A DNA stretch of 64,000 bases from Verrucomicrobiia bacterium (lineage in GTDB: Bacteria; Verrucomicrobiota; Verrucomicrobiia; Limisphaerales; JAEYXS01): assembly GCA_036405135.1 (NCBI GenBank), contig DASWYF010000034.1, forward strand, positions 62,001-126,000, in the 5' to 3' direction. This document shows positions 1 through 23,300 of this stretch, piece after piece. Numbering within the stretch: the stretch's first letter is position 1; each line of letters starts with the position of its first letter. A program made the position numbers and the translations under genes. The notes beneath the pieces are model-generated. The model did not search any database, was not told the origin of the DNA, and was given only the letters and a program-made list of their open reading frames with translations.

Positions 1-693
1 TTGTTTCTGGTAATCCTCGAGCTTGATGAACTGCAAATTCTTGGGGGCGAAAAGCACATCAACCATCACCAACGCTACGACGATCGTCACCCCGCCTATC
101 AACCGTCGCAGAAACTGCACCGGAACGCCCGCCACAAACATCATGACGAAGCCCACCGGAATGAATACGAGCGCCGATCCCAGGTCTGGCTCCTTCAAAA
201 TCAACACAAACGGCAAAATCATCAATCCAAGCGATTTCAAAAATATCTTGGGCTGGCGCAATTCATCCACTGGCCGGCTGAGGAAATGCGCCATGAACAG
301 GATGAACGCCATTTTGGCGAATTCCGATGGCTGTATCTGGAAGAATGGGAATTTGATCCATCGCTTGGCACCCCAGCCGTTGTCCACTCCCACGCCCGGG
401 ATATAAAGCGCCAGCAGAAACAGGATGGATGCCCAATAAGCGATCAATGACCAACGCGTGAGAATCGGATAATCCACCAGACACACCACGGTTGCACAGA
501 ATGTGCCTGCGGCATACCAGATCATCTGCCGGAAATAGGGCTGATCCCAGAGGGCGAGCTGGGCGGCACCTTCACGATTCATCGTGGCACTGAAGATGAA
601 CAGCACTCCGAACACCATCAGGCCAAAGAGGCTCGCCACCATCAGCCAGTCCAGCCGTGGTTCGCGCGTGTTCAATGATGCTTTTCCAATCAT
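1..693 (-). CDS. rodA: Rod-shape peptidoglycan polymerase RodA (partial, C-terminus beyond window)
   Basis: This is the N-terminal 231 codons of a SEDS-family glycosyltransferase that polymerises lipid II in lateral-wall synthesis with PBP2. The frame is open to the window edge, so there is no stop. It begins MIGKASLNTREPRLDWLM and carries several hydrophobic segments. The family stretch GAKRWIKF, then QPSEFAK and LKEPDLGSALV, matches RodA/FtsW. The ATG overlaps the mrdA stop as ATGA, which fixes the start and indicates translational coupling. RodA rather than FtsW is inferred from its place directly after mrdA in the mre cluster. The catalytic Asp region is not covered by the visible part. 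Confidence 0.93.
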   Translation of the reverse strand, partial: MIGKASLNTREPRLDWLMVASLFGLMVFGVLFIFSATMNREGAAQLALWDQPYFRQMIWYAAGTFCATVVCLVDYPILTRWSLIAYWASILFLLALYIPGVGVDNGWGAKRWIKFPFFQIQPSEFAKMAFILFMAHFLSRPVDELRQPKIFLKSLGLMILPFVLILKEPDLGSALVFIPVGFVMMFVAGVPVQFLRRLIGGVTIVVALVMVDVLFAPKNLQFIKLEDYQKQ

Positions 694-4120: not shown

Positions 4121-5146
4121 TCAACTGCGGCTTGAGGCCACGCGCTTGAGGAACGAGAGTTCCTGCAAGACACGGCCAGTGCCTTCTGCGACAGCCGTTA
4201 GCGGGCTTTCGCCGATATGCACCGGCAGGCCGGTTTCCTGCGCCACCATGCGGTCAATGCCGCGCAGCAACGCCCCACCACCAGCCATCACGATACCCCG
4301 GTCCACCAGGTCGGCGGACAATTCTGGCGGGCAGCGTTCCAGCGTGATGCGGATTGATTCCAAAATACTGTTGAGAGGTTCCTTCAGTGCCTCGCGTATC
4401 TCCTCGGAGCGGATGGTCAGCGTTTTGGGCAGACCTGCGGCCAGATCACGGCCTTTGACTTCCAGCGTCAATTCCTGCTCCAGAGGAAAGGCCGATCCGA
4501 TCCGGATCTTGATCTCCTCCGCGGTGCGTTCACCGATCATCAAGTTATAGGCACGCTTCATGTGGGCGATGATGGTCTCGTCAAACTCATCTCCCCCTAC
4601 GCGCAAGCTGCGGCTGAACACGATACCTGCCAGCGAGATGATCGCTATCTCGCAAGTACCGCCGCCGATATCCACAATCATGTTGCCCGCCGGTTCGTGA
4701 ACCGGCAGACCTACGCCAATGGCCGAAGCCATCGGTTGTTCGATCAGATAGACCTCTCGCGCTCCGGCATGCGTGGCGGAATCTTTCACCGCCCGCTTTT
4801 CCACTTCAGTAATACCTGAAGGCACCGCCACCACCACCCGGGGGGCGATCAATTTCCTATGGTGAACCTTTTGGATGAAGTGCCGCAACATCGCCTCCGT
4901 GATCTCGAAATCCGCGATCACGCCGTCCTTCATTGGACGAATGGCGACAATATTACCCGGGGTGCGCCCAAGCATCCGCTTGGCTTCCTCACCCACGGCG
5001 AGCACATTGGTGGTCCCCGCCTCAATGGCGACGACCGAAGGCTCACGCAAGACTATGCCTTGGTCGCGAACATAAACGAGTGAGTTCGCTGTCCCAAGGT
5101 CAATGCCGATGTCGTTGGAGAACAGGCCTTTAATCTGCGCAAACAT
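4121..5146 (-). CDS. mreB: Rod shape-determining actin homologue MreB
   Basis: Actin-fold ATPase of 341 aa, the family length. It forms membrane-associated filaments that orient lateral-wall synthesis. Visible signatures are the phosphate-1 loop [31 protein letters not shown], the phosphate-2 loop [13 protein letters not shown], and the adenosine motif [15 protein letters not shown]. It is the first gene of the operon; a plausible promoter lies 23-52 bases upstream. The N-terminal [12 protein letters not shown] resembles the usual membrane-binding amphipathic start. Confidence 0.97.
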
Positions 5147-5168
5147 GAACTATGCCTAATTGGAATTT

Positions 5169-5198
5169 ATCGTAAGTCGGCTAATTCCTTGGGGTCAA
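5169..5198 (-). promoter_or_regulatory. Candidate sigma-70 promoter of the mre operon
   Basis: On the minus strand, TTGACC (5198-5193) is followed after 18 bases by TACGAT (5174-5169), about 23 bases upstream of the mreB ATG. A short inverted repeat, GGCAAA (5208-5213) and TTTGCC (5225-5230), lies just upstream of the -35 box and could be a regulator site. The rest of 5199-5382 is AT-rich with no supported gene. The match is by consensus only. Confidence 0.4.
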
Positions 5199-5382
5199 GC
5201 TATTTAAGGCAAACCGTGTATTATTTTGCCCAACCGTCACCAATAACACTAACAATTCAGCATCCAATATATCGGGCAGATCCTCCTAATCGCGTTACAC
5301 CAAGTGCTCGAATCATATTTAACCCAACTCACACCTTTTACGAACTGCTGGTAATCAGCGATGAACAGCGAAGATTTCCTCC

Positions 5383-6042
5383 CTAACGCCGACGATAGCG
5401 GATAAGGCTATGCATAGGATGGATGAAACGGAACTGGTCACGACGGTATTCCAAGGACGGATAAACAGGATTGTAGCTGGTGAGACGCACCATCTCGTTA
5501 TTCGGGCCGTAGGTGTGGTAGAGCTTGAAGAGGACATCGCCAGACTCTTCCAGACGCGCGACGACGACATCACCGTTACGCGGTTGTTCATTCGGGAGGA
5601 AGATGACGCGGTCACCAGACTTGAACTCAGGCGTCATGGAGTCGCCCTCCAAGATGAGCGCGTATGCGTTGGGGTCTTGGCAATCGCTGTTCAGGTATTC
5701 ATCGATCTGGGCGGACAAATCGGCAAAATCACCCCCCTGCCCCGCTGAGGCCCAACTGACTACGGGAACGCTATGGCTTTTACCTTCGGCCTGCCATTGC
5801 GCAGCCAAGGCGCGAGGTGCCGTGGAGTCATCACCATAAAACCATGGGATAGGACGATTGTAGGTTTCGGAAATCTTCTGGATCTTGGCGGGATGCGGCA
5901 AGGTCTGGGCCATCTCCCATGACTGCACGGAACGCAATGCAACATCCATGGCATCAGCAGCTTGACGTTGAGACCAACCTTTAGCGATGCGGCAATCCAA
6001 GAGGCGTTTTGCCAGCATCTGCTTCTTTTCTGCATTTTTCAT
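5383..6042 (-). CDS. XRE-family repressor with S24 (LexA/CI-like) autocleavage domain
   Basis: Protein of 219 aa. An N-terminal helix-turn-helix (about residues 12-65, WSQRQAADAMDVALRSVQSWE) binds DNA. A C-terminal S24 domain carries the catalytic dyad S135 (EGDSMTPEF) and K173 (VLFKLYH). A candidate Ala-Gly cleavage site is at A100-G101 (WASAGQGG). Such proteins (CI, LexA and relatives) repress genes until RecA-stimulated self-cleavage during DNA damage. AAGGGA lies about ten bases before its ATG. It diverges from a 40-codon ORF and metH, and no phage genes are nearby. LexA itself is less likely, because the DNA-binding domain is XRE-type rather than LexA winged helix. The targets are unknown. 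Confidence 0.85.
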   Translation of the reverse strand: MKNAEKKQMLAKRLLDCRIAKGWSQRQAADAMDVALRSVQSWEMAQTLPHPAKIQKISETYNRPIPWFYGDDSTAPRALAAQWQAEGKSHSVPVVSWASAGQGGDFADLSAQIDEYLNSDCQDPNAYALILEGDSMTPEFKSGDRVIFLPNEQPRNGDVVVARLEESGDVLFKLYHTYGPNNEMVRLTSYNPVYPSLEYRRDQFRFIHPMHSLIRYRRR

Positions 6043-6092
6043 TTGACGAAATCCCTTGATTACGACACTTTATATGCAGCAAGGAGGCCGAT

Positions 6093-6215
6093 ATGGCAAC
6101 AGAAAAAGAAGTAAAAGCAGTATCAGATGATTTTACCAACTCAAAATGGATAATTGCAGGTTATTTGTGCCATCGTCACGAAGAGTGTTCATATCTACAT
6201 ATCAAGATACGTTGA
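6093..6215 (+). CDS. Small ORF (40 aa) divergent from the S24 repressor
   Basis: ATG at 6093 follows a near-perfect ribosome binding site, AAGGAGG at 6081-6087, five bases before the start, one of the strongest in the window. The peptide begins MATEKEVKAVSDDF, then NSKWIIAGYLCHRHEE, and ends HIKIR before TGA. It is polar with two Cys and three His and has no signal peptide. The arrangement, a small gene read away from a CI/LexA-like repressor across a roughly 50-base gap, suggests the repressor controls it. I recognise no family, and it is shorter than Cro proteins. It could also be a leader ORF for metH, 62 bases downstream. Confidence 0.5.
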   Translation: MATEKEVKAVSDDFTNSKWIIAGYLCHRHEECSYLHIKIR

Positions 6216-6277
6216 TTTTTAATTTGATGAAGAATCATTTCGTGTTTAGATTCAGCAGACAAATGGGTGCCAGATAA

Positions 6278-10159
<3,882 letters not shown>

Positions 10160-10209: not shown

Positions 10210-12291
10210 TCACACCACCGTGCCGCTTTCCGTGATGATGCTGCGAACTTTCGCCAGCAACATTTCCGGAGTGTAGGGCTTTTGGATAAAGGCCGCCGGT
10301 GTTTTGCTCGTGAAACGGCTGATGACTTCGCTTTCACTGAAGCCACTCATCAACAGCACTTTTACGCCGGGCATGATCATGCGCATGGCATTGAAAGTTT
10401 GCTGACCATCCATCTTCGGCATGGTGAGATCGAGAATCACCGCCACAATCAAAGGCCGGTGTTCACGGAACACTTCGAGTCCTTCGGCACCGTCACTGGC
10501 GGTCAACACTTGGTAGCCCGCCTCCTGCAAAGCGCGGCGGCAGACGTCACGCACTGTTTCCTCGTCATCTACGACAAGCACTGTGCCGGTCGGTTTTTTA
10601 GTCGTAGTGGAATCCGCGTCCTTGCTGCGACGCGATATGGTCGTATCGTAACGTTCCTTGGCTGGCTTGAAGAAGACACGGAAAGTGCTGCCGACATCCT
10701 TGGTGCTTGAGACCGTGAGTATGCCACCCTGGCTGCGAACGATTCCCATAACTGCAGGGAGACCGAGTCCGCGACCGACGAATTTCGTGGTGAAGAAAGG
10801 ATCAAACATCCGTGATTTCGTCGCCTCATCCATCCCGCAACCATCATCCTTTACTTCGAACATCACATACTCATCCTGCAATTTATCAGGTTGAAGGATG
10901 ACACCGGCAAGCGCTGCTGGATCCGGCAAAACCTTGCGTGTAACAACTTTCACGATACCGGTCTTGCCGTCTAATGCTTCGATGGCATTCATCATGAGAT
11001 TCATGATCAACTGGCGCATCTGCATAGGATCCCCGAGGATCGGAGGCACGCCAGGTTCACATTCAAAGATTATCTCAGCGCGGCTGGAGTAAGTGGTGCG
11101 CAACAGCGTGATGGTGTCACGCGCTATCTCATTCATGTAAACCGGTCCAAGAATGAAACGGCCGCCACCGGCATAGGCAAGCAACTGGCGGCAAAGATCG
11201 GCAGCACGTTGAGCATCCTTCTCGATGTCAGTGAGGCAAACTGTCATCTCCGCACCAGCCGCGGAATCCTCCCGCACCATGGCCGCATTGCAGATGATGC
11301 CGGTGAGCAGGTTGTTGAAATCGTGCGCGATGCCGCCAGCGAGCACGCCGAGGCTTTCCAGGCGCTGCGTTTCCTGCAAGCGATTGCGCACAAGTTCACG
11401 GTCTCTCTCGGCACGCTTGCGTTCCGTGATGTCAACAAATGCGCCGACAGCACCGCGGACACGTCCATCGCGATCGTGCAATGGCGCTGCGAAAGCAATG
11501 ATGTGGCGGCGCTCGCCGTCTTGAAAAACAATGTCTTCTTCAAACTCCTCTATGTTCACGTCCTTGCTGGCAGCCACCTGAAGCGGGAGATCTTCCGGCT
11601 TCAGCCTTACCCCTTGATGCTCTATGTAAAAGTGATGCGGGGCCTCGCCAGCCGGTGCGCTGAGAGATGCGTTTTGCCCCTCCTCCACGCGCAACATCCT
11701 GGAAAGAGCGGCGTTGGATTTGATCGTTTTGCAGGCCGGGTCCTGGGCTATGCCGATGCCCACAGGCATCACTTTGAGCAAAGTCTCTAGTTCTTGTATA
11801 CGTTCTTGAAGGGCCTGATTCAGGCGGCGAACTTCACTTTCTGCTGTTTTCCGCTGCTCTATCTCCTGTTGCAATTCCGCATTCATCTTTGCCATGCCCG
11901 GCAACGCCATGGCTTCAGGAAGATGCCTCATCAGGAATAGAACTGTGGCCCAGGAGGCGACAGCGGTAACTACTTTCATCAAACCGGAGATATGATAGAT
12001 GGGTTTCCAGAAAATGATCGTCTCAATCAGATGCGTAAGTCCGCACGAAAGAATGAACGCCGCAAAGAGCCAGTACAGCTTCGGGTGAGTGATCTCGCTC
12101 TTTTTCTGCCGCACATAATAAGCGATCGAGAGTGGAATGGCCGCATAAGCGCCGAAAATAGCAGCGTCTGCCAAAATATGGATCCAACCATGCATCGACG
12201 TCCAGGCTCCGCACTCCCACCGTGGTGGAAAGCCCGTTGTGTCGAACAGATTGGCTATGGAAAGAAACATAAAAATAAATTTTATCACCAC
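10210..12291 (-). CDS. Hybrid histidine kinase with ethylene-receptor-like membrane domain
   Basis: Protein of 693 aa. Three hydrophobic helices (about residues 36-125) resemble the ethylene-binding domain of plant ETR1. D42 precedes AAIFGAYAAIPL, and CGLTHLIE holds C83 and H87 at the positions of the ETR1 Cu(I) ligands C65 and H69 (CGATHLI). A short coiled coil (about 135-170) and a PAS domain (about 168-290) follow. A kinase core has phosphoacceptor H323 in GGIAHDFNNLL and an ATPase domain with DDGCGM and GRGLGLPAV. A C-terminal receiver (about 574-690) starts VLVVDDEE and has its phospho-Asp in ILDLTMPKMDG. The start is GTG at 12291 or ATG at 12270; neither has a clear ribosome binding site. 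Function as a Cu/ethylene or volatile sensor is inferred from the ligand pair. Confidence 0.85.
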   Translation of the reverse strand: MVIKFIFMFLSIANLFDTTGFPPRWECGAWTSMHGWIHILADAAIFGAYAAIPLSIAYYVRQKKSEITHPKLYWLFAAFILSCGLTHLIETIIFWKPIYHISGLMKVVTAVASWATVLFLMRHLPEAMALPGMAKMNAELQQEIEQRKTAESEVRRLNQALQERIQELETLLKVMPVGIGIAQDPACKTIKSNAALSRMLRVEEGQNASLSAPAGEAPHHFYIEHQGVRLKPEDLPLQVAASKDVNIEEFEEDIVFQDGERRHIIAFAAPLHDRDGRVRGAVGAFVDITERKRAERDRELVRNRLQETQRLESLGVLAGGIAHDFNNLLTGIICNAAMVREDSAAGAEMTVCLTDIEKDAQRAADLCRQLLAYAGGGRFILGPVYMNEIARDTITLLRTTYSSRAEIIFECEPGVPPILGDPMQMRQLIMNLMMNAIEALDGKTGIVKVVTRKVLPDPAALAGVILQPDKLQDEYVMFEVKDDGCGMDEATKSRMFDPFFTTKFVGRGLGLPAVMGIVRSQGGILTVSSTKDVGSTFRVFFKPAKERYDTTISRRSKDADSTTTKKPTGTVLVVDDEETVRDVCRRALQEAGYQVLTASDGAEGLEVFREHRPLIVAVILDLTMPKMDGQQTFNAMRMIMPGVKVLLMSGFSESEVISRFTSKTPAAFIQKPYTPEMLLAKVRSIITESGTVV

Positions 12292-12493
12292 ACACTCTCA
12301 TCCTCTTGGCTGCGCATGCAGACAATACACCTCCCCCATGAAAACCACCAATCCCGGAAGGAATTTTCTATTCGTAATCCTCTCAAATGCAAGACATAGC
12401 GCACCTTTCGATATGCGCAGGAAAATACATGCTTTCGCTTAAATTCCTCCATTGTTTGTCATCTCTGATATAGTAGTCTTGGAGAAACACAAA

Positions 12494-15400
12494 ATGCGTA
12501 CTTTGATGACCGTGCTCCGGAGTCATAGGGCTTTTAACAGCTGCCATGCCTTGCTGTTAAGCTGGCCGCTGTTGTTCGTTCATTTCAACTTGCAAGCGGC
12601 TGACTCCAAGCTCGAATTCAACCGCGATATACGGCCAATTTTATCGGACAAATGTTTTTACTGCCACGGGCCGGACAAGAATCACCGCAAGGCCGACCTG
12701 CGTCTGGATGTCCGCGCTGATGCCATCGCGGCTAAAGCCATCATCCCGGGCAAACCGGACGAGAGCGAATTGATCGTCCGTGTCTTCACCACGAATGCAG
12801 ACGATCTCATGCCTCCGCCGGAGGCGCATAAGACTCTGACTGCCACCCAAAAGGAGATGCTGAAAAAATGGGTGGCACAAGGTGCAGAGTATCAGGAGCA
12901 CTGGGCATATCTTCCGCCCCAGCGCACGACTCCTCCAACTGTTGCCGATACCAAATGGACGCGCACGCCGGTGGATAATTTCATCGCGGCCAGATTGACC
13001 GAGAGCAAGCTAACGCCATCCGCCGAAGCTGATCGTCGCACCCTGCTCCGCCGTCTCAGTCTCGATCTCACCGGCTTGCCGCCCACAGTGGCGGAAGTGG
13101 AAGCGTTCCTGAGGGATAAAGACCCGAAGGCTTATGAGAAACAGGTGGAACGTCTCCTGCGCTCTCCACACTACGGCGAGCGCATGGCGGTGCCGTGGCT
13201 GGACGCCGTGCGTTTCACGGACACCGTCGGCTATCACGGTGACCAGAACCAGAACATCTTCCCCTATCGCGAATACGTCATCAATGCGTTCAATAACAAC
13301 AAGCGCTTCGACCAGTTCACAATCGAGCAGCTTGCCGGGGACCTGCTGCCGAATCCGACCACGGAGCAGATCATCGCCACCGGTTTTAACCGCCTGAACA
13401 TGATGACGCGCGAAGGCGGTGCCCAGGCCAAAGAGTATCTGGCCAAGTATGCGGCTGACCGTGTGCGCACCGTTGGCACGGCTTGGCTTGGTTCCACGCT
13501 GGGTTGCGCCGAATGCCATGACCACAAGTTTGACCCGTTCACGGCCAAAGATTTTTACGCCATGGCGGCTTACTTCTCGGATGTGAAACAATGGGGCGTT
13601 TACAGCGATTACAAATACACGCCTGAGCCGGAGCTTAAAGGCTTCAACAACGAGTTCCCCTTCCCGCCGGAGATGCAAGTGAGCAGCCCTTATCTGAAGG
13701 AACGCTCACAGGAACTGCGCTTCAAGCTGCAAGCCATCGCCGATGTCTCCGCTCGCGAAGTGGACAAGGATGCTTACAAGCAATGGCGCGAGCAAAGCCT
13801 GATCTGGTTGAAGAAAAATCCGAGCGGCTGGAACTCGCCCGCCGACATCGCCATCAGCACGGAAAACCTGACCAAGAAAAACGCCAAAGATAAGAAAGCC
13901 GTAGCCAAACAGGCGGATTTCTTGAGCGTGACAAATGCAAGGACGGAAGCGGATGGCAGCATTCTTTTTGCCGCGAAACGCAACGGCAGCGACCGTTACG
14001 AGATCACCCTGCCGGACATGGACCTGGCTGCTCTGCGGCTGGAATTGCTCCCTGCCTCTGCCGATAAGCCGGGCATCCTCCTTAAGGATGCCACTGCGGC
14101 CAACATCAAGTTCAAGGCCGCCTTGAAACGTGCGGGTGAAACCAAGACGGAGCCATTGACCATCGACCACGGCATGGCCAGCCAGTGGGATGAACGCTAT
14201 AAAGATGGAGCCGCCATCATCGGTGTGCGCGACATGTGGAAGGTATCCAGCAAACATCTGCAAGAGCCACAGACCGCTGTTTGGCAGTTCCAAGCGATCA
14301 AGCAGGTGAAAGCGGGCGATGTGCTCGAACTCACCTTGGATGAGAACCCGGCCGCTCGCGTGCGTTGGTCGGTAGCTCCTTTTGCCAATTTGAATCCGCT
14401 GGCACCTTTGACGGATGCAGCCGCATTGCTGAACAAGCACAAATCACTGGCGAAATCTGCGGATCTGGCAGAACTCTTCCTGCTGAGTACACAGTCAGAC
14501 ACGAATGCCTTAAAGGAATTCCGGCAAACGCGAACGGATTGGCTGGAATGCCGCGATGGTCAGGCGCAAACGCTTATCACCGTCGCCTGGCAGCCCAGAG
14601 ATGTCCGCGTTCTACCACGTGGCAACTGGCAGGACGACAGCGGCAAGGTCGTCTCCCCTTACCCGCCGGAGTTTTTGATCCAGAAGAAATCGGATGATTC
14701 CCGCCGCCTTAACCGGCTGGATCTCGCCCGCTGGATCGTTTCTCCAGAAAACCCTCTGACCGCCCGTGTCATCATGAACCGGTTGTGGAAACAGTTCTTC
14801 GGCAATGGCCTGTGCAACAGCATCGAAGACTTGGGCGCGCAAGGTGAATGGCCCTCGCATCCTGAGCTGTTGGACTGGCTGGCGGTCGAGTTCCGCGAGA
14901 GCGGCTGGGACTACCGGCACATGGTGCGCCTCATGGTCAATTCAGCAGCCTACCGCCAGAGCTCCAATCTGAAGAAGGAAGTGATCGAAGCTGATCCGGA
15001 GAACCGCTTGTTGGCGTCACAGAATCCGCGCCGTCTGGATGCGGAGTTCGTGCGGGATAACGCCCTCTTTGTCGCCGGTCTTCTGAATCTCGATATCGGT
15101 GGGCCCAGTGCCAAGCCCTATCAACCGCCGGGATACTACGAGAGCCTGCAATTTCCGGACCGCGATTACATCGCCCACTTGGATGATCGCCAGTATCGCC
15201 GCGGTCTCTACATGCACTGGCAGCGCACTTTCCTGCATCCCATGCTGGCAAATTTTGATGCGCCCTCTCGCGAGGAATGCACCGGTGTGCGCGTTGCCTC
15301 CAACACGCCACAACAGGCGTTGACCTTGCTGAACGATCCCTCCTTCGTGGAAGCCGCCCGGGTGCTCGCGCAGGAAGTGATGGAATCTTCCAAGAATGAC

Positions 15401-15649
15401 TCACGCCGTCTTGAAACAACTTTCAAGCGTACACTGGCTCGCGAACCGAAGGAGGCCGAGAAGAAATCGCTCCTCGCATTGCTGAAGCAACAGGAGTCCT
15501 TTTACCAAGGGGCCGCAGCCGAGGCGGAAAAGTTGCTGGAGGTCGGCAATTCACCCCGGAACACCGCGCTGCCCGCTCATGAACACGCGGCGTGGACCTC
15601 GGTCTGCCGTGTCATCCTGAACTTGCACGAAACCATCACCCGCTATTGA
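12494..15649 (+). CDS. PSCyt1-DUF1549-DUF1553 secreted cytochrome-like protein
   Basis: Large exported protein (1051 aa from ATG 12494) of the Planctomycetes-Verrucomicrobia family. A hydrophobic signal segment ends near LQAADSK. The PSCyt1 domain carries a c-type haem motif, CFYCH in DKCFYCHGPDK. DUF1549 follows, with LRRLSLDLTGLPPT and a second CxxCH (CAECHDHKFDP). A beta-rich insert leads to DUF1553 (LARWIVSPENPLTARV, NRLWKQFFG, SSNLKK). I prefer ATG 12494 to the in-frame TTG at 12452 because GGAG lies about ten bases upstream and it gives a clean signal peptide. It is paired three bases ahead of a DUF1501 gene, as is typical. The biochemical role is not established; periplasmic polysaccharide or sulfate-ester breakdown is often guessed from context. 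Confidence 0.9.
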   Translation: MRTLMTVLRSHRAFNSCHALLLSWPLLFVHFNLQAADSKLEFNRDIRPILSDKCFYCHGPDKNHRKADLRLDVRADAIAAKAIIPGKPDESELIVRVFTTNADDLMPPPEAHKTLTATQKEMLKKWVAQGAEYQEHWAYLPPQRTTPPTVADTKWTRTPVDNFIAARLTESKLTPSAEADRRTLLRRLSLDLTGLPPTVAEVEAFLRDKDPKAYEKQVERLLRSPHYGERMAVPWLDAVRFTDTVGYHGDQNQNIFPYREYVINAFNNNKRFDQFTIEQLAGDLLPNPTTEQIIATGFNRLNMMTREGGAQAKEYLAKYAADRVRTVGTAWLGSTLGCAECHDHKFDPFTAKDFYAMAAYFSDVKQWGVYSDYKYTPEPELKGFNNEFPFPPEMQVSSPYLKERSQELRFKLQAIADVSAREVDKDAYKQWREQSLIWLKKNPSGWNSPADIAISTENLTKKNAKDKKAVAKQADFLSVTNARTEADGSILFAAKRNGSDRYEITLPDMDLAALRLELLPASADKPGILLKDATAANIKFKAALKRAGETKTEPLTIDHGMASQWDERYKDGAAIIGVRDMWKVSSKHLQEPQTAVWQFQAIKQVKAGDVLELTLDENPAARVRWSVAPFANLNPLAPLTDAAALLNKHKSLAKSADLAELFLLSTQSDTNALKEFRQTRTDWLECRDGQAQTLITVAWQPRDVRVLPRGNWQDDSGKVVSPYPPEFLIQKKSDDSRRLNRLDLARWIVSPENPLTARVIMNRLWKQFFGNGLCNSIEDLGAQGEWPSHPELLDWLAVEFRESGWDYRHMVRLMVNSAAYRQSSNLKKEVIEADPENRLLASQNPRRLDAEFVRDNALFVAGLLNLDIGGPSAKPYQPPGYYESLQFPDRDYIAHLDDRQYRRGLYMHWQRTFLHPMLANFDAPSREECTGVRVASNTPQQALTLLNDPSFVEAARVLAQEVMESSKNDSRRLETTFKRTLAREPKEAEKKSLLALLKQQESFYQGAAAEAEKLLEVGNSPRNTALPAHEHAAWTSVCRVILNLHETITRY

Positions 15650-15652
15650 CGT

Positions 15653-17113
15653 ATGAACTGGCCCAACTTTTTCAGTTCCGAGTATCACGCCAGCTTGAAC
15701 CGCCGCACGTTCCTGACACGCAGCGGTCTTGGCCTTGGCTCGCTCGCCTTTGGTTCCCTGCTCTTTCGCAATGGTCAGCCGGTGATGGCGGCCGATGTCC
15801 CCCGCAGCTCAGGCAGCGGCGGCATCATCCATCCACCGCACTATCCGGTGAAAGCGAAGCGCGTCATCCACCTTTGCATGGCGGGCGGTCCTTCCCAGGT
15901 GGAGACGTTTGATCCCAAGCCCGAGCTGAAGAAGCTCGATGGCCAGCCATTTCCAGAATCGCTGACGAAAGGGCAGCAACTGGCGCAGTTGCAAGGCACC
16001 ACGCTGAAAGCGCGCGGTTCCTTCGTGGACTTCAAGAAACACGGCAAATCCGGCCAGGAAATCTCCGATCTGTTCCCGCACATCGCGGGGATCGCTGATG
16101 ACATCTGCATCGTGCGCTCCATGGTCACAGAGCAGATCAACCATGATCCGGCGCACGCGTTCATGAATTCCGGCTCAATCCTCAAGGGCCGTCCCAGCAT
16201 GGGTTCCTGGCTGCTCTATGGTCTGGGCGCGGAAACGGACAGCCTGCCGGGTTTTGTAGTGCTCGTTTCCCAAGGCAAGGGCGGCGGTGCGCAACCGGTC
16301 TCGGCCCGTCAATGGTCCAGCGGCTTTTTGCCCAGCCGCTTTCAAGGCATCCAATTTCAATCGAAGGGCGATGCGGTGCATTATGTCGGTAATCCCGATG
16401 GAGTTTGCCAGAGCACACAACGGCAGTTGGTCGAAGAGATCAACCGCCTGAACGGCCAGCTTGCGCAGGATCGCCTGGACCCGGAAATCCAGACGCGCAT
16501 GAGCCAGTATGAGATGGCCTTCCGCATGCAAACATCCGTGCCTGAATTGACGGACTTCAAGCAGGAGCCCAAGCACATCCTCGATCTCTACGGCGTGAAG
16601 GAACCGGGCGATGGCAGCTTTGCTTCAAACTGTCTCCTGGCGCGTCGTCTCGCAGAACGCGGTGTGCGCTTCATCCAGCTTTATCATCGGGCATGGGACC
16701 ACCATGGTGACATCGAGAAGAACATGCCCAAGGCGGCTTTGGAGACCGATCAAGCCAGCGCGGCGTTGGTGAACGATCTGAAGCAACGCGGCCTGCTGGA
16801 TAACACGTTCATCATCTGGGGCGGCGAATTCGGCCGTACGCCGATGGGCCAGGGTACGGGTCGCGATCATCACATCCTCTCCTTCTCACTGTGGATGGCC
16901 GGTGGCGGCATCAAGCCGGGCACTACTTACGGAGCCACCGATGAGTTCGGATATCGTGCGGTTGAGAATATCGTGCATGTGCGCGACCTGCACGCGACCA
17001 TGCTTCACCTTTGCGGCATTGATCACAACCGTTTCAGTGTGAAGTTCCAGGGGCTCGACGCCAAGCTCACAGGTGTGGAACAGGCCAAGGTTATCAAAGC
17101 GATCTTGGCCTGA
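15653..17113 (+). CDS. DUF1501 family Tat-exported protein (sulfatase-like fold)
   Basis: Protein of 486 aa with a twin-arginine type signal (NRRTFLTRSGLGLGSLAF). The DUF1501 core is clear: CMAGGPSQVETFDPKP near the start, SWLLYGLG, FIQLYHRAWDHHGD, and the C-terminal IWGGEFGRTPMGQG followed by GRDHH. DUF1501 proteins have an alkaline-phosphatase-like fold and may act as periplasmic hydrolases, but none of the usual functions is proven here. It begins three bases after the DUF1549/DUF1553 stop, so the two are co-transcribed. The next gene is convergent; 17114-17215 holds only a weak hairpin. Confidence 0.92.
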   Translation: MNWPNFFSSEYHASLNRRTFLTRSGLGLGSLAFGSLLFRNGQPVMAADVPRSSGSGGIIHPPHYPVKAKRVIHLCMAGGPSQVETFDPKPELKKLDGQPFPESLTKGQQLAQLQGTTLKARGSFVDFKKHGKSGQEISDLFPHIAGIADDICIVRSMVTEQINHDPAHAFMNSGSILKGRPSMGSWLLYGLGAETDSLPGFVVLVSQGKGGGAQPVSARQWSSGFLPSRFQGIQFQSKGDAVHYVGNPDGVCQSTQRQLVEEINRLNGQLAQDRLDPEIQTRMSQYEMAFRMQTSVPELTDFKQEPKHILDLYGVKEPGDGSFASNCLLARRLAERGVRFIQLYHRAWDHHGDIEKNMPKAALETDQASAALVNDLKQRGLLDNTFIIWGGEFGRTPMGQGTGRDHHILSFSLWMAGGGIKPGTTYGATDEFGYRAVENIVHVRDLHATMLHLCGIDHNRFSVKFQGLDAKLTGVEQAKVIKAILA

Positions 17114-20317: not shown

Positions 20318-23300
20318 TTAGCCGTTCTTGCCGCAGCAATGCTTGAACTTCTTGCCGCTGCCGCAAGGGCATGGATCGTTGCGGCCCACTTTGGGACCGG
20401 TGCGCACGGGCTTGACCTTGGACATCGCCTCCGTCGCCTCATTGACCATCTCACTGCCCTCGCCCGCCTGCTGTTTCGATTCCGCAAAGGCACTGGAGGG
20501 CTGTTGGTGCAGCGTCTGCTTCGGCAGGTTCAGCATGAACTGCTCAAACGCCATGAAGCTGGACGCACTGCGGAAGATGTTGTGGCAGGCTTCCGTCTTG
20601 ATGCTGTCCATCAACTCCTCGAACAGCTTGAATGCCTCCGCCTTGTACTCGATCAACGGATCGCGCTGGCCGAATTGACGCAGGCCGATCGCGGTGCGCA
20701 AGCCATCCATCGTGTAGAGATGCTCCTGCCACAGCTTGTCGATGGCGCTCAGAATCGTGTAACGCTCGATCGCCTTCAGCGCATTCTTGTCCTGCTCGTA
20801 CTGGACTTTGATCATGTAGGCGTCACGGACGGCCTTGATGATGAAAGTGCAGACGGAAAGCTGCTCGGCGCTCAAACCATCAAAGACCGAGCCCGCCACG
20901 GGTTGCTGATCCCCGGCATTAGCCGCTTTGAGGATCTCTTCTTCGGGGATGCCGACCGGGAAATTCAGGTTCGCCCATTCGGCCAGCGCGCGGATGTTCC
21001 ACATGTCCGGCCCTTCCTCATGCGAGGTGTTTTGCTGCACCTTGGAGATGACCACTTCCTCCATGATGTCCAGCAAACGGTCCTGCACATCGTCCGACTG
21101 GATGATCTCATTGCGGAAGCCGTAGAGGACTTCACGCTGCTTGTTCATCACGTCGTCATACTCCAGCGTGCGTTTGCGCTGCTGGAAGTTGTGCTGTTCG
21201 ACGCGTTTCTGGGCCGTCTCGATGGAGCGGTTCAGCAATGGATGTTCCAACTCCTGCCCTTCTTCCAGGCCCACCCGTTCCATCAGCTTGCTGATGCGGT
21301 CAGAACCGAAGAGACGCATGAGATCGTCTTCCAACGAGATGAAAAAGTGCGAGGAACCCGGATCGCCCTGGCGCGCACAACGGCCGCGCAACTGGCGGTC
21401 GATACGGCGGGACTCATGACGCTCCGTGGCGATGACGTGCAAACCGCCCAATTCGGAAACACCCGGCCCCAATTTGATGTCCGTACCACGACCGGCCATG
21501 TTCGTGGCGATGGTCACAGCGCCGCGCTGCCCGGCACGGGAAACGATCTCAGCCTCCTGCTCGTGATACTTGGCGTTCAACACCGCGTGCACGATGCCTT
21601 CCTTCTTGAGGATACGAGAAAGGAACTCGCTGACCTCGACGGAGATCGTACCGACCAGAATCGGGCGACCAATCTTGTGGATTTCCTGGATCTCCTTTAG
21701 GACGGCGGCGAATTTCTCGCGACGTGTCTTATACACCGTGTCGTGCTTGTCATTGCGCAGGCACGGACGGTTGGTCGGAATGACCAGCACACCCAGCTTG
21801 TAGATGTCGAAAAATTCCTGCGCTTCCGTCTCCGCCGTACCGGTCATGCCGGCCAGCTTGTGATACAGGCGGAAGTAATTCTGGATCGTGATGGTCGCGT
21901 AGGTCTGCGTCTCTTCCTCGATGGTGACGCCTTCCTTCGCTTCCACGGCCTGATGCAAGCCCTCGCTCCAACGGCGGCCCGTCATCTTGCGGCCCGTGTT
22001 CTCATCCACGATAACCACCTTGTTGTCCTCCACGACGTACTGAACATCCTTCTCGTAGAGGCAGTAGGCTTTCAGCAACTGGGCGATGCTGTGGATGCGT
22101 TCGGCCTTGGCCTCGAACTCGCCCTGAATCTTCGTCTTCAGTTCAGCCCGCTTGCGGACATCCTGCTCGGGGCCGTTGTCGATCTCATGATACGCGCTCA
22201 CGATGTCAGGCATCATGAACGCATCCGGATCTTGCGGACTCAGGAATTCACGGCCTTTTTCCGTCAAATCTGCTTCATGGCTCTTCTCCTCGATGGCAAA
22301 GAACAACTCTTCCTTCTGCGCGTAGAGCTCTTTCTTCGTCTGGTCGGAGTGCAGTTCCAAGTCTACCTTGTTCAGCATCCGCAGATTTTCGGCATCCTCC
22401 AGTAGACGCGCCAGACCTTCAGCCTTGGGCTGGCCTAAGCGCACGCGATACAGCAAGACGCCGATCTCTCTTTCTAAATTCCCTTTATCGCCTTCGATGC
22501 CTCCGCCCTTGAGCTTTTTGACGAGTTGTTCGGCCTCATCGATATAGCGGCTGCACAAACGGCGTTGCGATTGCACCAGTGCTTCGATCCCCGGTTTAAG
22601 CACCTCGTAAATCTTATTGTCGCGGGCCACGACCGCAGGACCGCTGATGATGAGCGGCACGCGCGCTTCATCGATCAAGATGGAGTCCACTTCATCCACG
22701 ATGGCGAAGTAATGTCCGCGCTGCACCTGGTCTTCCTTGCGCGTGGCCATGCCATTATCGCGCAAATAATCGAAACCGAACTCAGCATTGGTGCCGTAAG
22801 TGATGTCGCAATTGTATTGCTCGCGACGCACGCCAGGCGGCTGGTCATGGAGGATGCAACCGACAGTCAAACCGAGAAAGCGATACACCGCCCCCATCCA
22901 GTCACTGTCACGGGCCGCGAGATAATCATTCACCGTCACTACGTGCACACCACGACCGGACAAAGCATTCAGATACGTCGGCAACGTACCGACGAGCGTC
23001 TTACCTTCGCCCGTGGCCATTTCCGCGATCATCCCGTTGTGCAGGCCCATACCACCGATCAACTGTACATCGAACGGCACCATCTCCCAGCGCAAGGCAT
23101 GGTCACGCACCATGATGTCCTTGCCGCAAAGACGGCGGCAGGCATTCTTCACCACGGCAAAAGCCTCAGGCAGAATGGCTTCAAGCTCGCGCTTGAGCTG
23201 GCCGTTATCCTGTATCTGGGATAACTTTTGCTTCCAGAAAGCGGTCTTTTCGCGCAGAACTTCGTCCGGCTTGGACTGCAACTCCTTCTCCAGCTCGTTA

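Follow-up and report, generated by a model that had tools for sequence, protein, structure and literature searches.

The locus and its gene neighbourhood

The window is a stretch of 64,000 nucleotides from a bacterium of the class Verrucomicrobiia. Its minus strand carries a gene for a hybrid histidine kinase, in which an ethylene-binding domain (EBD) is followed by a PAS domain, a histidine kinase core and a receiver domain (Table 1). The reading frame starts at a GTG. A likely alternative start is the ATG at 12270, which gives 686 aa. The N-terminus of the homologue L061, MLDFFKHLFDTSGF, lines up with MFLSIANLFDTTGF of the kinase, which begins at this ATG, so the shorter form may be the true length.

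Table 1. Features of the hybrid kinase gene, with positions in the window
Feature	Position	Strand	Residues (aa)	Details	Basis
EBD-PAS-HK-REC hybrid histidine kinase gene	10210..12291	minus	693 aa from GTG	complete and open	ORF
Type-B N-terminal signature FPPRWECGAW	12202..12231	minus	21-30	sole N-terminal Cys, C27	alignment
Ethylene-binding domain (EBD), PF25487	11902..12192	minus	34-130	three TM helices	Pfam + AlphaFold2
PAS domain	11413..11763	minus	177-293		PAS_4 32.4 bits, PAS_9
HisKA dimerisation/phosphoacceptor region	11170..11343	minus	317-374	H323 in GGIAHDFNN	Pfam + motif
HATPase_c	10663..11034	minus	420-543	N (431), G1 (482), F (496) and G2 (506) boxes	Pfam + motifs
Receiver domain	10243..10581	minus	571-683	D575/D576, phospho-acceptor D621, S649, K671	Response_reg + motifs

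The metH gene (6278-10159, plus strand) is the convergent neighbour of the kinase gene. On the other side, a PSCyt1/PSCyt2/PSD1 gene and a DUF1501 gene lie at 12452-17113 and are divergent. These neighbours give no functional hint for the kinase. Near the gene, an Rfam scan found zero RNA elements and no genes for ethylene synthesis or use were identified. No partner response regulator gene adjoins it, and no recurrent operon partner was found for this kinase. Copper P-type ATPases occur in the source genome; such ATPases are near-universal. With the PAS-kinase-receiver part as query, the source genome gives 111 matches; it abounds in two-component proteins. The closest paralogue of this part (G000:C3:21100-22659) has 41% identity and lies in a frame of 1050 aa.

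Domain architecture and catalytic motifs

The sequence-only reading had proposed an ethylene-receptor-like domain at the head of a bacterial hybrid kinase. The profile search bears this out. The Pfam model ETR1_N (PF25487) matches from position 2 to 97 of its 97 positions, with E=1.6e-29 and 102.5 bits against a curated cut-off of 27 bits, and PAS, HATPase_c and Response_reg follow. No profile places this region in an unrelated sensor family; it falls in the ETR1 N-terminal family alone. The profile hits exactly one place in the source genome (5.8 Mb, 97.8% complete) and has zero matches in 14 control genomes, which argues that the match is not due to chance. The identity of the sensor domain as that of an ethylene receptor is thus a well supported prediction.

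The HisKA profile scores 24.7 bits, slightly under its cut-off of 26.9 bits. The boxes of the kinase read NLMMNAIE, DDGCGM, FDPFFTTK and GRGLGLP. Judged by motif, the core is catalytically complete, with the phospho-acceptor His, the N, G1, F and G2 boxes and the receiver Asp all in place.

Putative residues for copper and ethylene binding

Seven residues are needed for ethylene binding in Arabidopsis ETR1: D25, Y32, I35, P36, I62, C65 and H69. All of them are present in the aligned EBD of the kinase, as D42, Y49, I52, P53, I80, C83 and H87, and K106 corresponds to ETR1 K91. The copper motif FILSCGLTHL spans aa 79-88. The Cys and His previously assigned to the Cu(I) positions of ETR1 are therefore confirmed under the same numbers, the upstream Asp is D42, and the set of binding residues, as aligned, is complete beyond these three. 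For ETR1, the alignment uses what we take to be its sequence, with AzoEtr1 of Azospirillum as independent anchor; the EBD has only about 32% identity to this ETR1 sequence, a point against the ethylene reading.

The alignment was anchored on the numbering of AzoEtr1 (PMC11819568). The AzoEtr1 gene on the Azospirillum plasmid ABSP7_p1 (L009) encodes 525 aa, the published length, and its D35, C75, H79 and K98 are at the positions given in that work. These four residues pair with D42, C83, H87 and K106 of the kinase, and the two EBDs have 34% identity over 129 aa. The fragment AzoEtr1(1-130), made in Pichia, shows saturable ethylene binding (PMC11819568). In ETR1, each monomer holds a single Cu(I) close to C65 and H69 (PMC6586836).

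C27 is invariant in an alignment of 35 rows. Cyanobacterial receptors have one N-terminal Cys, which has been suggested to replace the dimer disulfide of ETR1 (PMC6682694). C27 could take this role in the kinase.

Predicted structure of the sensor domain

The AlphaFold2 model of the EBD region (35 sequences) has a mean pLDDT of 91.4 and a pTM of 0.75. It predicts a confident bundle of three membrane helices (aa 32-62, 70-93 and 99-129), in agreement with the three-helix N-terminus already read from the sequence, and three hydropathy peaks coincide with these helices. A long linker helix follows at aa 133-157. In the model, C83 and H87 lie one turn apart on helix 2. D42, Y49, I52 and P53 sit on helix 1, and K106 on helix 3.

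The comparison with solved structures leaves room for a chance or convergent CxxxH motif in an unrelated sensor with three membrane helices. A sequence search of the PDB with the EBD gave zero matches, so no solved ETR1 membrane domain turned up in this way. Foldseek and VIA-align comparisons of the model with the PDB returned generic helix bundles (best Foldseek E 0.74; best Z 8.8, a GPCR). For a three-helix bundle, such fold matches are uninformative. Against a chance motif stand the profile match over the full domain, its absence from the control genomes and the 129-aa alignment with AzoEtr1. We consider the chance explanation effectively refuted.

Homologues in the same order and in congeners

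The nearest full-length homologues in the same order are L022 (G095:C85) and L023 (G154:C60). As far as their sequences can be read, they have the same architecture, with 46% and 45% identity over 628 aa, and are the top matches to the PAS-HK-REC part in their own genomes. Both retain D25, I62, C65 and K91 (ETR1 numbering). However, H69 and Y32 are replaced by Phe, I35-P36 by MA, and the N-terminal Cys (C27) is absent. The loss of the copper His and other residues indicates that kinases of this lineage can do without the site, which the 12291-10210 copy retains.

These losses might suggest that the EBD is a mere membrane anchor or dimerisation module in this lineage, with the PAS domain reading the real signal. 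The scarcity of type-B sequences (defined below) in the same order, 3 among 293 genomes, points the same way. Nevertheless, the kinase retains every binding residue at an overall identity of about 45-46% to L022 and L023, a pattern that one would not expect of a relaxed anchor. We find this explanation very improbable. For the kinase EBD, the two H-less homologues offer a natural negative control.

An absence of the gene from the congeners was considered and is wrong for G001. In this genome an orthologue lies next to metH, with a receiver 86% identical. Its contig C464 (L141; 16,315 bp) ends within the gene, and the sensor half is unassembled. The orthologue shows that the kinase gene was not recently gained by the source genome alone. 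An orthologue cut by a contig end also means that EBD counts obtained by profile from draft genomes are too low. The genome of congener G002 is 76% complete and uninformative on absence of the gene.

Distribution of EBDs and the type-A/type-B split

The EBD profile has matches in 18 of the 293 genomes surveyed from the same order and in 25 of 246 from Planctomycetota. With the protein as query, 22 of 388 genomes across the phylum match. The occurrence of such a domain in a non-photosynthetic lineage is real, as had been pointed out. However, it is less surprising than was implied. EBDs outside cyanobacteria and plants are already recognised in proteobacteria, where AzoEtr1 is functional (PMC11819568), and our survey finds them common in the PVC group. 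The setting is therefore not exceptional.

A scan confirmed 209 relatives of the kinase's EBD type. The best 80 of the 209 (L049-L128) come from Verrucomicrobiota, Planctomycetota, Lentisphaerota, Hydrogenedentota, Myxococcota and Bacteroidota, and have up to 68% identity to the kinase EBD. They include a relative of the same class, Verrucomicrobium sp. BvORR034 (L050), with its match at 22357-22746 of its contig. The type-B kinases of Verrucomicrobium, Prosthecobacter, Rhodopirellula and Gemmataceae in this set have in common with our kinase the signature FPxRWxCGxW..HGWxHI.SD and the binding residues. They differ from it in kinase cores and domain order. Of 74 type-B members scanned from the best 80, 19 have a receiver domain. 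An adjacent co-directional gene resembling a response regulator accompanies 12 of 71 type-B EBD genes by a crude motif test.

Two types of EBD were distinguished. Type A carries the signature MPHGHCYLW...LHVxSD and holds the Azospirillum receptor and a cyanobacterial plasmid copy. Type B carries FPxRWxCGxW..HGWxHIxSD. Type B comes out as a single group (SH-aLRT 100, stem 0.63) when 126 EBDs are placed in a tree, although this tree rests on 117 alignment columns and has many open forks, and AtETR1 is on a long branch with its own place unsure. The kinase sits inside the type-B clade, not in type A.

Conservation counts on L049-L128 are biased, as these sequences were fetched by patterns containing CGxTHL or RWxCGxW. 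We therefore rely on the profile/HMMER-found samples. In these, all seven binding residues are kept in 12 of 14 type-B sequences from Verrucomicrobiota and in 15 of 16 from Planctomycetota. The N-terminal Cys is kept in 13 of 14 and 16 of 16, respectively.

In the open-access literature on ethylene receptors in these phyla, we found no experimental work on type-B EBDs and no ethylene test of any of them. This search covers open-access papers, so a prior listing of type-B sequences is likely.

The type-B Cu(I) site could be intact and serve a different natural ligand, such as copper status, CO, redox state or another small alkene or alkyne. The separate clade and its distinctive conserved N-terminus (RWxCGxW and HGWxH) are consistent with this. 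So are the hosts, which include marine planctomycetes and groundwater bacteria without an obvious plant partner, and the literature result given above. Nevertheless, 27 of the 30 type-B sequences that were sampled independently of the motif also have Y32, I35, P36 and I62. ETR1 requires these residues for ethylene binding, and their conservation counts against a pure copper sensor, which need not keep them. On balance, a ligand other than ethylene, the main alternative, seems unlikely for this kinase. For type B in general, we offer as a doubtful idea that its EBDs may be gas receptors that depend on copper, evolved as a separate branch and differ from the plant type in ligand or affinity (for example CO, acetylene or very low ethylene). 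If true, the use of olefins or small gases as signals would be widespread among non-photosynthetic bacteria.

Comparison with known receptors

AzoEtr1 of Azospirillum brasilense Sp7 likewise begins with an EBD that contains these seven residues and K98, followed by PAS and histidine kinase domains (PMC11819568). In contrast to our kinase, it belongs to type A (N-terminus LPHGVCLFW) and lacks a receiver domain; a separate response regulator gene lies next door. SynEtr1 (slr1212) of Synechocystis PCC 6803, compared by its description, is also a histidine kinase headed by an EBD, but it has an additional cyanobacteriochrome (light) module (PMC6682694).

Arabidopsis ETR1 is, like our protein, a hybrid kinase with a receiver domain behind an EBD with the binding residues listed above. 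It has a GAF domain after the EBD, where the kinase has PAS, and two N-terminal Cys (C4 and C6) instead of one. ETR1 resides in the ER membrane and signals through CTR1/EIN2.

Proposed sensing mechanism

From the family, residues, predicted topology and catalytic motifs observed here, we infer a copper site and its ligand. The hybrid kinase probably sits in the membrane and uses this site to sense ethylene, or a small gas or alkene that likewise binds Cu(I). The kinase would work as a dimer. Cu(I) would be held between C83 and H87 of TM2 in each three-helix unit, with D42 (TM1) positioning H87 and contacting K106 (TM3). Binding of the ligand would shift the helix bundle, and the signal would pass via the linker helix and the PAS domain. 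The end effect would be a change in how H323 is autophosphorylated and in phosphotransfer to D621. This output path, like the sign of the response, we infer. Ethylene is reported as a negative regulator of SynEtr1 (PMC7700396). For the present kinase, it is the more likely case that ethylene lowers, rather than raises, kinase activity.

By its sequence, the kinase is a clear added member of the known ethylene-receptor family, in a large and little-tested type-B branch. Few bacterial ethylene receptors are proven to work (Synechocystis, Azospirillum), and that of Azospirillum is on the type-A side. A cleanly conserved type-B kinase, together with its H-less homologues from the same order, allows a direct test of ethylene sensing in PVC bacteria. 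The pair could also tell which residues define the ligand. If the ethylene reading is true, abundant decomposers of soils and the sea would take ethylene from plants, algae or photochemistry as a cue.

Other arrangements of the EBD

A further EBD clade in the same class (SH-aLRT 99) consists of L019, L020, L021, L024, L042 and L043. In it, P36 is Ser (LSISxTLAYLVYKA), and the Cys and His are retained.

Some type-B EBDs of about 200 aa stand alone as proteins, in the regions L067 4991-8448, L080 4976-7147, L081 4943-7659 and L095 about 4973-7229. Several of them share a similar tail, EVNELLxELGxxxxY. A gene resembling a histidine kinase, apparently with its own hydrophobic N-terminus, directly follows or overlaps the EBD gene. 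This arrangement resembles a receptor divided between two genes, in which the EBD forms a subunit by itself.
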